From Dysgonamonadaceae bacterium (GTDB lineage Bacteria; Bacteroidota; Bacteroidia; Bacteroidales; Azobacteroidaceae): DNA of 12,962 nt. Within the stretch, counting starts at the first letter, position 1; every line of letters begins with the position of its first letter. This document shows positions 1 through 5,427 of the stretch, piece after piece. The position numbers and the translations under genes are program-made. The notes below the pieces were generated by a model. That model was not told the origin of the DNA. It saw only the letters and a program-made list of their open reading frames with translations, and did not search any database. The DNA lies in NCBI GenBank assembly GCA_031260235.1, contig JAIRKG010000048.1, forward strand, positions 1-12,962, read 5' to 3'.

Positions 1-1076
1 GCCTCAACCTGCGAAAGCCCAATGAAAACCGCCGACAGCAACGTAAACACATACGCCTGTATAAACGCGACCAGCAACTCGACAAAATCAATGAAAACAG
101 TCATCACAACCGACAAAACGCTCATTCCTGCATTCATCGCAGCACCCAAACCGACCGTCACGAAAACAACGCAAGTCAATCCCAAAACAATTGCGTGACC
201 GGCTAAAATATTGGCAAACAAACGAATCATCAATGCAAACGGTTTCGTAAACATGCCAACCACTTCTATCGCAGGCATAATCGGAACGGGTACTTTCAGC
301 CACGCAGGCACATCAGGCCAGAAAATCTCTTTCCAATATTCTTTCGTCCCGAAACTGTTGACAACGATAAAGGTACAAATCGCCAATACACAAGTAATAG
401 CAATATTTCCAGTCACATTAGCCCCTCCCGGAAACACAGGGATAATCCCCAGCAAGTTATTGAAAAAGATAAAGAAAAAAACCGTCAGCAAATAAGGCGT
501 ATAGCGTCTGTAATTCTTCCCGACACAAGGTTTTACCACATCATCAACAATACTCATTATCAACATCTCCATCATTGCTACAAAGCCTTTGGGCGATGCT
601 TCTTCCACTTTCCGCCTCCGATACCAGTTCGCGCAAATCATGATTAAAATAATTAAAACCGTACTGCTCATTATCAGGGAAACAGCGTTTTTGGTCAGCG
701 AAAAATCCAGCGGGCGAATTTCCTCGCCGGAAACATTCTTTTCGACAATCTTCCCTTTGTATTTCCCTTCGCGGGCAATGGAAAATCCCTCATACCCGGC
801 ATGTCCGTGTTCAAAACGCGAGGAAAGGAAGATGCGCCAAACGCCGTTGCTTCCACGCACAATCACCGGCAAAGGAATCGAAACCGAATGTCCTTTAATC
901 GTCAAGATATGCCAGTCATAAGCATCGCCGACATGCTCAAGAATCAATTCGGTTACATTCAAGTCTTTCTCTGATTTGCCGATATGTTCCGCTTCGACCG
1001 GAATTTCATGAGCAAATATACTCGTCCCTGCGAACAGGAATAAGCCCAACACCATATATATCACTCTATTTTTCAT
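1..1076 (-). CDS. atpB: ATP synthase F0 subunit a (partial, C-terminal end beyond window)
   Basis: Subunit a of the F0 membrane sector forms the proton path beside the c-ring. The reading frame is open for 358 codons from ATG at 1076 and runs off the left edge. Residues 1–22 look like a signal peptide ending SIFAHE. A periplasmic extension of about 100 residues follows, a trait I associate with Bacteroidota subunit a, and then the usual hydrophobic helices begin around residue 130. The family signature MIRLFANILAGH is present; Arg285 matches the essential arginine (E. coli R210). The next-to-last conserved helix, VELLVAFIQAYVF, is at about 332–344. The start overlaps the upstream membrane-protein gene by 11 nt, so the two are probably translationally coupled in the atp operon. 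The identification is firm; only the last helix segment is missing. Confidence 0.95.
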   Translation of the reverse strand, partial: MKNRVIYMVLGLFLFAGTSIFAHEIPVEAEHIGKSEKDLNVTELILEHVGDAYDWHILTIKGHSVSIPLPVIVRGSNGVWRIFLSSRFEHGHAGYEGFSIAREGKYKGKIVEKNVSGEEIRPLDFSLTKNAVSLIMSSTVLIILIMICANWYRRRKVEEASPKGFVAMMEMLIMSIVDDVVKPCVGKNYRRYTPYLLTVFFFIFFNNLLGIIPVFPGGANVTGNIAITCVLAICTFIVVNSFGTKEYWKEIFWPDVPAWLKVPVPIMPAIEVVGMFTKPFALMIRLFANILAGHAIVLGLTCVVFVTVGLGAAMNAGMSVLSVVMTVFIDFVELLVAFIQAYVFTLLSAVFIGLSQVE

Positions 1077-1467
1077 CTTTTATTACTCTATTTTTCTCGC
1101 AGCAAACCAGATAAATCGTATCAAACGCTAAAAATATCAGGTACAAAGTTACGAAAATAATTATAACCCGCCGCATTTCCATTTTAACCATAAATGCATA
1201 TAACATTACAAAAAAGACGGATAACAAAATCTTGCCGACTTTCAGTCCCATAAACAGATTGATTGATTGCCGGGGCGAAACGGATTTATACTTTTTATTG
1301 ACGATAAAAACAGCGGCAATTTCATATAAACCCAAAAGCAGGACGCTTGCCTGACACCACCAATACGGCTCTGCTTTTACAAACAATTCGCCTCTGAAGT
1401 TGTTCAACAACAAAATCAAAGCAAGCATTAGCGAACAGGTGAGATATTCTATTTTCATCTTCTTCAC
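1066..1467 (-). CDS. Small four-helix membrane protein at the atpI position of the atp operon
   Basis: This protein of about 130 residues lies between atpC and atpB, where Bacteroidota operons commonly carry an uncharacterised AtpI-like gene. Four hydrophobic stretches are visible at roughly residues 9–23, 38–56, 69–94 and 100–123. Basic residues sit in the loops, and the C-terminal tail is charged (EKNRVIKDEK). The longest frame starts at GTG 1467. An ATG at 1458 (MKIEYLT) gives 130 residues and is at least as likely, with an AG-rich stretch just before it. The gene begins 9–18 nt after the atpC stop and ends inside atpB. By position and topology I infer a role in assembling the c-ring or the F0 sector, as proposed for AtpI. 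No motif proves this, and no gene symbol is safe. Confidence 0.8.
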   Translation of the reverse strand: MKKMKIEYLTCSLMLALILLLNNFRGELFVKAEPYWWCQASVLLLGLYEIAAVFIVNKKYKSVSPRQSINLFMGLKVGKILLSVFFVMLYAFMVKMEMRRVIIIFVTLYLIFLAFDTIYLVCCEKNRVIKDEK

Positions 1468-1476
1468 ATTAAGAAT

Positions 1477-1710
1477 TTATTCTATGCAAACCGAAACCAT
1501 ATTCTGTTTGACTTCTGCAAATCCGCTGTTTATTTCCAGCGTATTTTCGCTATCGCCGATTTTGTAAGTCAGCATTCCTTTTTTCAAAATCGAAATAATT
1601 GGGGCATGATGATTCAAAACGGTAAACAAGCCGGCTGCACCGGGCAAAGTAACGGAGTCTGCTTCGCCGCTGTAAATGACTTTTTCGGGGGAGATTACTT
1701 CGATTTTCAT
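1477..1710 (-). CDS. atpC: ATP synthase F1 subunit epsilon, short form
   Basis: Epsilon belongs to the central stalk of F1 and couples the c-ring to gamma. The 77-residue product opens with the typical MKIEVISPEKVIYSGEADSV and contains the LPGAAGLFTVLNHHAPII block of the N-terminal beta-sandwich domain. The whole C-terminal helical hairpin found in about 130–140 residue epsilon subunits is absent, so the inhibitory, ATP-sensing part is missing. I recall short epsilon subunits as normal in Bacteroidota, so this is not read as damage. ATG 1708–1710 overlaps the TGA of the upstream methyltransferase gene as ATGA, instead of following atpD directly. Its translation therefore probably depends partly on ribosomes leaving the methyltransferase gene. 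Confidence 0.95.
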   Translation of the reverse strand: MKIEVISPEKVIYSGEADSVTLPGAAGLFTVLNHHAPIISILKKGMLTYKIGDSENTLEINSGFAEVKQNMVSVCIE

Positions 1711-3227
1711 TTCTTTTGGTTTTTTATTTCAATTTTTACCTTATCCGTCCCGCTAATACCTTCCCTGTCAACGGCTTCAACTGCAATCTGATGCTCACCG
1801 TCCGGAAATTTCTTAGTCTGTTTTCCCGTTTTATCAAACAGGACGTCGGGTTTAAATCCGTTTTGTTCGCTGTGAGAAAAATCCCACGCATAGAAATCAA
1901 TGCCCGGTTCACTTTTAGCCTTTGCGGTAAATTCAAATTCATTTTTGTCGATGCTGTCGGCAGAAAGAGACACTTCGGGCTTTTTGCCGTAATCAACAAT
2001 ATCGCTGACCTTCACGAGTTTGATGATTGTACTGTTTTTATTTTTCAGACGGGCTATTTCTTCTACCGCACCTTTGCCAAATGAAAAAGCGATAATATAG
2101 CCCGCAATTTTTCCATCTTTTTTATTTTTTTCAAACAGTTTTTCGTCTTGCCGCCGAATTGCCGAAAGAAAATTATCAACAACATTTCTACCGATATTGT
2201 CGGAGCGTTTTACCTGAATAGGCGTGTTGTCCGACATTCTGCCGTCCAGCCCAAAATCGTTGCGCTGTTTGGCATTGGGTATGCCGCCGAATTTATTTAT
2301 AATCCACGATTCAAACTCAAAAGCATTGGAGCTTCTTAAAATATCGTAATCATATTTTCTCAAAATCAGTTCGTATGGCTGCGAAAAAGCATCATGCTGC
2401 TTTTTAAGCCGCAAGTCGGAAACTTTTATCGCCATCGAACTCTGGTCAATCCCAATCCATTTTCTACCCAGTTTGTCGGCTACAGCAATGGTTGTTCCAC
2501 CACCCACAAAGGGGTCAAGGACTGTATCTCCTTCGTTACTTGCCAACTCAATAATTCTTTCTAATAATAATTCGGGTTTTTGTGTTGGATACCCGATACG
2601 TTCTTTGGCTGATGGTGCGATGAAAGGTATTTGCCAAACATCATTTTCTCTAACGCCCTTTTCGTCAATCGTTTTATCACTCACGAGCAAAGGTTCTTCC
2701 CCTTTTTTGAAACGATGAAGTTTTCCACTTTTTTTTCTGCTCACAGAACCGTCCGTGTAATCTGTAAAAAGCGGATTAAACGTATAATTATCTGATTTTG
2801 AATACCAAAAAATCATATCGTGCAATTTTTGCAGATTATTAGATGGAGCAGTCCATCGCCGATAATGCCAAACGATTTCATTTCTAAAATTATTCCTGCC
2901 AAAAATTTTATCCAAAATCTCCACGCGGATATTTGCGCTCGCGTGCCAGTCGCAATGCAAAAACATACTGCCTGTCGGTTTCAGTTTGTCGTACATCAAA
3001 CGGACACGCTCATATAGCCACCCGATATAATGCTCAATCCCGCCTTCAAAACGGTCTTCAAAGCTGCGCACTTCGCCTTCATCTCCCCAAATCACCTCGT
3101 AGGTTTTATTTGAGAAAAAAGGCGGATCAAGATAAATCAAATCAATTGAATTATCTTCAATTCCTTTCAGCGCTTCGAGATTATCGCCGAGAATCAGTTT
3201 GTTGGTAAAATCTTTATCTTCAGGCAT
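1707..3227 (-). CDS. DNA amino-methyltransferase fused to Mrr-like nuclease and PKD-like domain
   Basis: This 506-residue protein appears to have three parts. Residues 10–280 are a beta-class N4/N6 DNA methyltransferase, with catalytic motif IV DPPF at 34–37 in the context DLIYLDPPFFSN, YPTQKP at 213–218, and SAM-binding motif I LDPFVGGGTT at 237–246; the order IV before I defines the class. Residues about 300–412 resemble an Mrr-type PD-(D/E)XK nuclease: FEFESWI, then FGLDG at 325–329 and QVK at 338–340 as the D…QxK metal-site pattern. Residues about 416–503 resemble a PKD/Ig-like beta sandwich (YAWDF at 446–450, then alternating strands ending DKVKIEIK). ATG 3227 lies 11 nt after the atpD stop; the TGA overlaps the atpC ATG. 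No separate specificity or endonuclease gene is visible. Target base and site cannot be read from sequence. Adenine methylation is only a guess from the DPPF motif. Confidence 0.9.
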   Translation of the reverse strand: MPEDKDFTNKLILGDNLEALKGIEDNSIDLIYLDPPFFSNKTYEVIWGDEGEVRSFEDRFEGGIEHYIGWLYERVRLMYDKLKPTGSMFLHCDWHASANIRVEILDKIFGRNNFRNEIVWHYRRWTAPSNNLQKLHDMIFWYSKSDNYTFNPLFTDYTDGSVSRKKSGKLHRFKKGEEPLLVSDKTIDEKGVRENDVWQIPFIAPSAKERIGYPTQKPELLLERIIELASNEGDTVLDPFVGGGTTIAVADKLGRKWIGIDQSSMAIKVSDLRLKKQHDAFSQPYELILRKYDYDILRSSNAFEFESWIINKFGGIPNAKQRNDFGLDGRMSDNTPIQVKRSDNIGRNVVDNFLSAIRRQDEKLFEKNKKDGKIAGYIIAFSFGKGAVEEIARLKNKNSTIIKLVKVSDIVDYGKKPEVSLSADSIDKNEFEFTAKAKSEPGIDFYAWDFSHSEQNGFKPDVLFDKTGKQTKKFPDGEHQIAVEAVDREGISGTDKVKIEIKNQKK

Positions 3228-3238
3228 AACTGTGTTTA

Positions 3239-4774
<1,536 letters not shown>

Positions 4775-4808
4775 TCATTAAAAACATAATTTCTTAAAAG
4801 AAACTCGA

Positions 4809-4839
4809 CAAAATTACTGTTTTCAATCTTAATATACAA
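4809..4839 (-). promoter_or_regulatory. Candidate Bacteroidota promoter for the atp operon
   Basis: Read on the minus strand, TAATTTTG (4809–4816) matches the Bacteroidota -7 consensus TAnnTTTG. A TTG (4837–4839) lies 20 nt upstream of it as a -33 element. Transcription would begin near 4802, leaving a leader of about 60 nt before the atpD ATG. The region is A/T-rich, so a chance match is possible. Confidence 0.45.
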
Positions 4840-4852
4840 GAAATTGATCAAC

Positions 4853-4885
4853 TTTGTCCTAATTACAGAAAAGTATATATATTTG
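4853..4885 (+). promoter_or_regulatory. Candidate Bacteroidota promoter for ogt
   Basis: TTTG at 4853–4856 and TATATTTG at 4878–4885 fit the -33/-7 pattern with 21 nt between them. The start would fall near 4892, about 25 nt before the ATG at 4918. It lies back-to-back with the candidate atp promoter, so a single 176-nt gap serves both genes. Confidence 0.5.
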
Positions 4886-4917
4886 ACACTGCAAAATTTA
4901 GAATACAGGAAAAAATC

Positions 4918-5427
4918 ATGGAATATATCAACAAAATCAAATCGCCGGTTGGAATACTCACTGTGTCGAGTGACGGTCAAAATATTTCCGGTCTTTGGAT
5001 TGAAGGGCAAAAATATTTTGCAAAAACATTGGGAAAGGATGTTTTGGAACAAGACCTGCCTCTGTTTAAAACTGTTCGGCAATGGCTTGATATTTATTTT
5101 TCCGGCAAGGAACCGGATTTTATGCCGCCGCTTATGCCCAAAGGAAGTCCATTTCAAAAAACGATATGGAATTATCTTTGCAAAATTCCTTATGGGCAAA
5201 CCACAAGTTATGGGGAACTCGCAAAACAGTTTGAATTGGAAAACGAAGGCAAACCAATGTCGGCGCGGGCGATTGGTGCTGCGGTAGGGCATAATTCTGT
5301 TTCCATTATAATTCCCTGTCATCGTATAATCGGCAAAAACGGCGATCTTACGGGATATGCCGGTGGTATCGACATAAAAATAAAACTTTTGCAATTGGAA
5401 GGTTTTCGGCATTGGAAAGTCCGTTAA
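4918..5427 (+). CDS. ogt: Methylated-DNA–protein-cysteine S-methyltransferase (Ogt/MGMT family)
   Basis: This suicide DNA-repair protein moves the methyl group from O6-methylguanine to its own cysteine. The 169-residue product has the acceptor motif IIPCHRIIG with Cys134. The DNA-binding helix carries SARAIGAAVGHN, where Arg117 corresponds to the base-flipping arginine finger and Asn126 to the hinge asparagine. The segment FQKTIWNYLCKIPYGQTTSYGELA (about 79–102) is the usual winged-helix entry. The length suits Ogt-type proteins without an AraC/Ada domain. It stands alone, divergent from atpD, and no Ada-type regulator is nearby. A longer frame runs antisense over it but shows no family features. 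The choice between the names ogt and adaB/mgmT is only by domain layout. Confidence 0.95.
   Translation: MEYINKIKSPVGILTVSSDGQNISGLWIEGQKYFAKTLGKDVLEQDLPLFKTVRQWLDIYFSGKEPDFMPPLMPKGSPFQKTIWNYLCKIPYGQTTSYGELAKQFELENEGKPMSARAIGAAVGHNSVSIIIPCHRIIGKNGDLTGYAGGIDIKIKLLQLEGFRHWKVR

Follow-up and report, generated by a model that had tools for sequence, protein, structure and literature searches.

In the genome of a Dysgonamonadaceae bacterium, the genes coding for the beta and epsilon subunits of the F1 ATP synthase, atpD and atpC, are separated by a gene coding for a restriction-modification-type protein. This arrangement raises the question of how such a gene comes to reside inside an essential operon, and whether it is held there. 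The window analyzed here, a stretch of 12,962 nucleotides, makes up an entire contig of a genome of 1.41 Mb (158 contigs, 75% complete). On its minus strand lie, in the order of transcription, atpD (3239..4741; TIGR01039, E 3.1e-232), the intervening gene, hereafter the guest (1707..3227, 506 aa), and atpC (1477..1710, 77 aa; PF02823, E 1.8e-22). AtpD and AtpC are ordinary members of their families by their profile matches, and the guest was recognized from its open reading frame, its Pfam match, a structure model and the presence of relatives at the same junction. The next gene on this strand (1066..1467), an open reading frame with a sub-threshold DUF2619 match alone, is presumably atpI-like, judging by its position. 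The open reading frames place the guest with spacings of 11 and -4 nt: a gap of 11 nt (3228..3238) separates the atpD stop from the guest ATG, and the guest stop and the atpC start overlap by 4 nt in an ATGA (1707..1710), an overlap also present in two other genomes of the genus, G022 (second copy) and G012. The clean co-directional fit that the first-pass annotation had described is thus confirmed, as is the boundary that it placed at 1707; its other boundary, 3241, takes in the atpD stop.

Repeats are likewise missing from the edges of the gene, as had been claimed. The interval 1400-3500 contains two short direct-repeat pairs, both inside the guest, and no inverted repeat pairs, and no terminal repeat or target duplication common to the junctions could be read by eye when these were compared across copies. 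A promoter scan of positions 1000-5000, the consensus of which does not cover Bacteroidota promoters, gave 14 matches against 8.4 expected from shuffles, none of them in the 11-nt gap between atpD and the guest, and one weak minus-strand match (1732-1703, 9/12) that spans the guest-atpC junction. The guest apparently has no promoter of its own between atpD and atpC.

Architecture of the predicted enzyme

The guest protein matches the Pfam family N6_N4_Mtase (PF01555) over residues 28-268 (E 1.3e-53; 182.6 bits against a cut-off of 26.7). The methyltransferase comprises a first part (residues 8-117; 2877..3206, like all features of this section on the minus strand), with a DPPF motif at 3117-3128, and a second part (residues 207-278; 2394..2609) with a DPFxGGGT motif. 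DPPF is the catalytic and DPFxGGGT the SAM-binding motif of methyltransferases, and D34, P35, P36 and F37, as well as D238, F240 and G242-G244, are invariant in 47/47 rows of an alignment of relatives (A2). The two parts enclose a variable stretch (residues 118-206; 2610..2876), presumed to be the target-recognition domain, whose identity between copies is uncorrelated with that of the C-terminal part (r=0.04). A predicted Mrr-like nuclease domain (residues 279-413; 1989..2393) and a PKD/FN3-like beta-sandwich tail (residues 414-506; 1710..1988), recognized by structure comparison, complete the chain. The whole protein was modelled with a mean pLDDT of 86, falling to 53-72 at residues 151-190, and the C-terminal 228 residues, modelled separately, with a mean of 91. 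The fold searches do not bear on the nuclease fold, as the PKD/FN3-like tail filled their match lists.

The nuclease assignment comes from a D-x9-QVK motif at 2208-2246, the catalytic motif of Mrr-like nucleases being of the D...QxK form, and from Pfam Mrr_cat, which matches 22 of the 47 C-termini compared in the family (best E 7.3e-5) and has no match in the C-terminus of the window protein itself. With this qualification, the description as a methyltransferase-nuclease-type gene in the first-pass annotation is borne out. Another reading would see in the guest an orphan regulatory methyltransferase, with an inactive nuclease part and methylation that tunes host genes. It would account for a single gene with no separate nuclease, and for an Mrr_cat similarity that is weak and absent for the window protein; moreover, the motif is intact in only 12 of the 14 rows of a second alignment (A1), with E at position 328 in the second copy of G022 and L at position 338 in one murG-side copy. 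However, D328, Q338, V339 and K340 are invariant in 47/47 rows of A2, and the nuclease part is under purifying selection like the methyltransferase, so that we find the orphan reading improbable. Taken together, sequence and structure model point to a DNA methyltransferase of the N6/N4 type that contains a variable stretch, presumably for recognition, and is followed by an Mrr-like nuclease domain and a PKD-like tail; the enzyme probably cuts DNA.

The closest solved structures for the methyltransferase are M.BceJIV and CcrM. The beta-class N6-adenine methyltransferases M.BceJIV, CcrM and M.RsrI resemble the first ~280 residues of the guest in fold and sequence, but the chains that matched (248-366 residues) cover nothing beyond its methyltransferase part. 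PADLOC gave the MTase_II model as best match (E 3.9e-79) and MTase_III as second (E 4.5e-50). The latter recalls the Mod subunit of Type III systems; however, no Res gene adjoins the guest, whose neighbors are atpD and atpC. The combination of a methyltransferase and a PD-(D/E)XK-type nuclease, here predicted, in one chain would be shared with Type IIG (IIC) enzymes. These have the order nuclease, methyltransferase, specificity, according to a passage of PMC4389544, whereas in the guest the methyltransferase, interrupted by the variable stretch, comes first and is followed by the nuclease-like part and the PKD-like tail; because of this different domain order we do not file it as Type IIG.

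The atpD-atpC junction in related genomes

The comparison of this junction across relatives, proposed with the first-pass annotation, covered 38 genomes of the genus, in 31 of which atpC was found. The junction is interrupted in eight of the 31, six times by the guest family when one remnant and one internally deleted copy are counted. A guest gene lies there in five genomes: that of the window (G000), G012, G022, where two copies stand in tandem, G008, whose copy is split over two contigs, and G009, whose copy has an internal deletion and runs off the contig, leaving its atpD out of view. In G033, a remnant matching guest residues 8-71 is left and atpC is kept. The remaining 23 of the 31 genomes have an atpD-atpC spacing of 0-55 nt. 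Outside the genus, the junction is uninterrupted in 28/28 relatives of the order, with spacings of 1-119 nt (the 30 best-scoring loci minus G000 and G003; atpD was found in 137 of 159 genomes). Ignoring kinship, the difference between 8/31 and 0/28 has p=0.005. The interrupted junction is a derived state in the genus.

It is also unstable. The first-pass annotation had spoken of a stable, selected residence and of a gene that could not easily be lost. Selection is indeed visible, the parts outside the central stretch being under purifying selection to judge from dN/dS values of 0.02-0.20 where computable (10 pairs, several with saturated dS), with a single tail value of 0.37 as exception. The claim of stability, however, is not borne out: the junction is empty in the related genome G004, occupied by other genes in G019 and G017, and holds an internally deleted copy in G009 and a remnant beside a retained atpC in G033. 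Given how common remnants and empty sites are, the data give no support to a gene that has become fixed there and resists loss.

In G019, a near relative, the genes found between atpD and atpC code for a HEPN and nucleotidyltransferase pair of toxin-antitoxin type (L035 3011-3702). In G017, the same place is taken by an open reading frame of 214 residues with no Pfam match, lipoprotein-like by eye (L040 2218-2862).

Given a fragmented genome of 158 contigs and 75% completeness, an error of assembly or binning would be an obvious suspicion, and the first-pass annotation had named it as such. However, the atpD-guest junction is seen in four assemblies (G000, G022, G012 and G008) and the guest-atpC junction in five (G000, G022, G012, G008, there on the other contig, and G009), the window's own included in both counts. 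The junctions recur in other assemblies and are therefore not an assembly error, and we give an artefact practically no weight.

Relatives of the guest in other operons

A scan of named genome contigs yielded 484 confirmed relatives, from which the 80 best loci were taken further. By record titles and tree labels, these best 80 of 484 belong to Bacteroidota, Spirochaetota, Planctomycetota, Pseudomonadota and others; two records (L087 and L159) name Ca. Symbiothrix, a symbiont in termite guts. Among the same 80, several copies have core genes, checked by Pfam, as neighbors on their own strand. Copies lie between PurH and MreB (L084), between V-ATPase subunits B and D (L085), between NuoK and NuoL (L111) and between PrfA and PyrF (L126). 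Others are flanked by subunits I and K of the V-ATPase (L091), by LepA with PurE 211 nt further on (L101), by an ODP flavoprotein and FlpD (L159), or by FixH and a copper-type P-ATPase (L162); on one side only, the neighbor is NuoI (L155) or V-ATPase K (L099). The L091 and L100 copies were placed at V-ATPase B|D by tblastn. In G022, one contig carries FtsW, MurG and then three guest-family copies up to its end, and another carries guest-family copies, a DUF5131 gene, a weak GMT-wHTH match and then MurC (L065, L066), which suggests, short of proof, a single guest-family array between murG and murC, two genes that are adjacent in the reference genome G003. Where the guest is absent, the corresponding junctions are usually short: nuoK and nuoL are spaced by -1 to 88 nt in 21 of 29 genus loci, the genus itself serving as reference because G003 has nuoK and nuoL split, and the V-ATPase B-D gap is 3-137 nt in 27 of 30 loci of the order, where subunit D was found in 41 of 119 genomes. 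Many guest-family copies among the best 80 of 484 have no core-operon neighbor.

We compared the placement of the family in the genus with that of 40 control loci drawn from two further methyltransferase families (PF00145, 21 loci; PF02384, 19 loci), using the gene order of G003 as reference and counting contig-edge halves separately (23 family rows). Both flanking genes were mapped and adjacent in G003 in 5/23 family rows (four at atpD-atpC, one at prfA-pyrF) against 0/40 controls, and a co-directional mapped neighbor within 150 nt was present in 12/23 against 0/40 (Fisher p 5e-7). Dropping G008:C90, a row fetched for its atpC, leaves 11 of 22 rows with such a neighbor, and counting G027:C41, a genus hit of similar identity that had been outside the comparison, as a further negative gives 11/23 against 0/40 (Fisher p=2.2e-6); these p values are only a guide, because the family rows share ancestry. 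Any mapped neighbor was found for 18/23 family rows and 23/40 controls, and mapped neighbors on both sides for 7 and 6. Loci of the control families are often part of multi-gene systems and for this reason an imperfect match for a one-gene unit.

Tight packing within operons was also considered as proof, and dropped. The family is no tighter than its surroundings: 13 of 63 family copies have gaps of less than 60 nt on both sides, as do 38 of the 212 further genes in these loci (p=0.71). It is, however, more often co-directional on both sides (44/63 against 108/212, p=0.009).

Core junctions of this kind also hold genes outside the family. Between nuoK and nuoL we found a different N6_N4 methyltransferase, in one open frame in G005 (L417 509-1465) and in pieces in two frames in G027 (L414), and a 23S_rRNA_IVP family protein in G035 (L403 1747-2055); in G007, an RNA_ligase gene precedes nuoL, and nuoK was not found there. 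In V-ATPase operons, a PDDEXK_3 protein lies between subunits B and D in G120 (L445 2361-2744), and genes for a HepT-like protein and a nucleotidyltransferase lie as a pair between D and I in G139 (L442 938-1491).

These occupants, together with those of atpD-atpC in G019 and G017, bring in another explanation, namely that the atpD-atpC, nuoK-nuoL and V-ATPase junctions take up any small accessory gene and that the guest is one passenger with no special gain. Since the same or neighboring junctions hold unrelated methyltransferase, HEPN, HepT, 23S_rRNA_IVP and PDDEXK_3 genes, they may simply be permissive, and this would explain part of the pattern; that the family is packed no tighter than other genes agrees with it. 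On the other hand, the occupants with a Pfam label are all of defense, toxin-antitoxin, methyltransferase, nuclease or IVP type, and none of the 40 control loci lies in such a place in the G003 test. We regard mere permissiveness as a serious possibility, somewhat short of an even chance, and one that is compatible with the guest being a mobile enzyme that lives in operons.

Insertion into operons has precedents. New genes rarely integrate within operons, as a passage of PMC5635113 states, and passages of PMC4615327 and PMC10273834 describe restriction-modification systems of the PabI family that lie within operons for glutamate and histidine as insertions, with retention by post-segregational killing as the proposed explanation. 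The first-pass annotation had allowed that the arrangement might already be described, and this applies in part, to the extent of these other restriction-modification genes. The guest is on the same strand as the flanking genes of one operon and relatives have empty sites, as in operon insertions of the PabI kind. As far as the PabI cases are described in these passages, it shares with them the position of restriction-modification genes on the operon strand between functionally linked genes, the empty sites in relatives and the replacement at one site. It differs in being one fused gene, where PabI systems are two genes (glycosylase and methyltransferase), and the guest family in occupying energy, cell-wall and translation operons at several junctions and in exchanging its presumed recognition stretch. 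Among the matches listed in a search of titles and abstract starts in the open-licence PMC literature, there was no report of this family, or of a methyltransferase at atpD-atpC or nuoK-nuoL, and the passages on "operon" in PMC12707154 contain nothing on operon insertion. Restriction-modification genes inserted in operons were thus already known, and the guest family at the junctions described here is real, derived and recurrent.

Descent, exchange of the central stretch and residence

The tree of the methyltransferase family (408 columns, central stretch left out) and the tree of atpD and atpC, a comparison proposed with the first-pass annotation, give a divided answer on how the guest reached this junction. 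On the atpD+atpC tree, a weak one with 15 of 31 inner branches open, the carriers require four changes by parsimony. On the family tree, the copies group with those of other junctions: the window's gene with a purH-mreB copy from Prevotellaceae, to which it is 90% identical over 403 columns (support 88), the pair of G022 with another Prevotellaceae copy (support 85), and the atp copy of G008 with the prfA-pyrF copy of G011 (support 98, starred). One to three arrivals at atpD-atpC are possible, because the tree is weakly resolved and recombination blurs that of the methyltransferase.

A single old insertion, passed down vertically and since degenerated or replaced in most lineages, would fit the position of all carriers except G012 in one clade with the empty G004 and the HEPN-bearing G019 (support 94/62), as well as the ATGA junction common to G000, G022 and G012. 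The N-terminal MPEDK shared by G000, G022 and G008 also agrees with it, yet is present in the L084 purH-mreB copy too. The groupings of the G008 copy with the prfA-pyrF copy and of the window's copy with the purH-mreB copy argue against common descent at this site, although replacement of the gene body by recombination could still reconcile them. A single insertion therefore seems to us a tentative reading, on the doubtful side.

Recombination has left clear traces within the gene. The identities of centre and C part show no correlation over all pairs of 88 copies (r=0.04); for the N and C parts, r is 0.53. The tandem copies of G022 are 96% identical in the N part, 29% in the centre and 95% in the C part, and the centre of copy a of this pair is 96% identical to that of the V-ATPase B|D copy L091, against 56% identity in the C part. 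The G012 copy has a centre like these two. At V-ATPase B|D itself, L085, L091 and L100 carry three different centres (identity 0.21-0.30) with C parts at 0.87-0.91. Centres can also be alike across phyla, as in L090 (Prevotellaceae) and L157 (Treponema), whose centres have an identity of 0.86 and whose C parts have one of 0.52. Judging from these sequences, copies exchange the presumed recognition stretch separately from the remaining protein.

The three centres at one V-ATPase junction bear on a further mechanism, intronless homing, in which the nuclease would cut empty junctions in or beside conserved genes and repair would copy the gene in. A single-gene unit with a nuclease motif, its recurrence at conserved junctions and the tandem copies of G022 are what homing would produce. 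However, three related copies with three different centres suggest that insertion site and presumed specificity are not tied, and unrelated genes at the same sites and many family copies elsewhere also speak against it, making homing very unlikely.

The guest is best seen, with a probability of roughly 0.7, as a single-chain enzyme of restriction-modification type that moves horizontally and has its place within the operons of its hosts. Such an enzyme would arrive by recombination of DNA brought in by phage or other transfer, having no mobility gene of its own. Once between atpD and atpC, it would be transcribed from the ATP synthase promoter, and the end of its translation may be coupled to atpC. 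The promoterless place in a steady operon would give even expression; the expression at ATP synthase level foreseen in the first-pass annotation is in this sense what we infer. The enzyme would cut unmodified incoming DNA. If methyltransferase and nuclease use one common recognition stretch, a swap of this stretch would change both specificities at once and the host would not be killed. Dependence of the host on the methylation and the precision needed for excision would help to retain the gene, though only for a time.

A possible carrier of such DNA is the viral contig L165 (161-7832), where a relative matching residues 8-501 adjoins terminase, portal and major head genes. Among plasmid records, 15 matched at E up to 1e-40 and one of them covers at least 80% of the query, at 30.7% identity; among reference phages, 7 records matched at the same threshold, 0 of them over 80% of the query.

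More broadly, the interiors of essential operons may form an overlooked class of defense hotspots, a generalization that we hold as a conjecture with the odds against it. Core junctions such as atpD|atpC, nuoK|nuoL, V-ATPase B|D and murG|murC would dock promoterless one-gene restriction-modification enzymes and other selfish or defense genes, offering steady expression and resistance to clean deletion, with recognition cassettes exchanged across families and phyla. If this were general, searches limited to defense islands would miss such genes, and the guest pattern provides a natural test of whether expression from an essential operon helps selfish restriction-modification genes to persist.

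Some arrangements around these genes are worth recording. In G022, a DUF5618 gene, absent from the window, lies between atpC and the next operon gene (L064 10984-11382). A Thiotrichaceae record (L096 4159-7518) has three family members in tandem, two of them short. Finally, G027:C41 (L471 992-4868) carries a row of three related shorter methyltransferases of 411-464 aa that have no nuclease part; they are 38-53% identical to the guest over residues 5-298 only, and their starting residues are near-identical.
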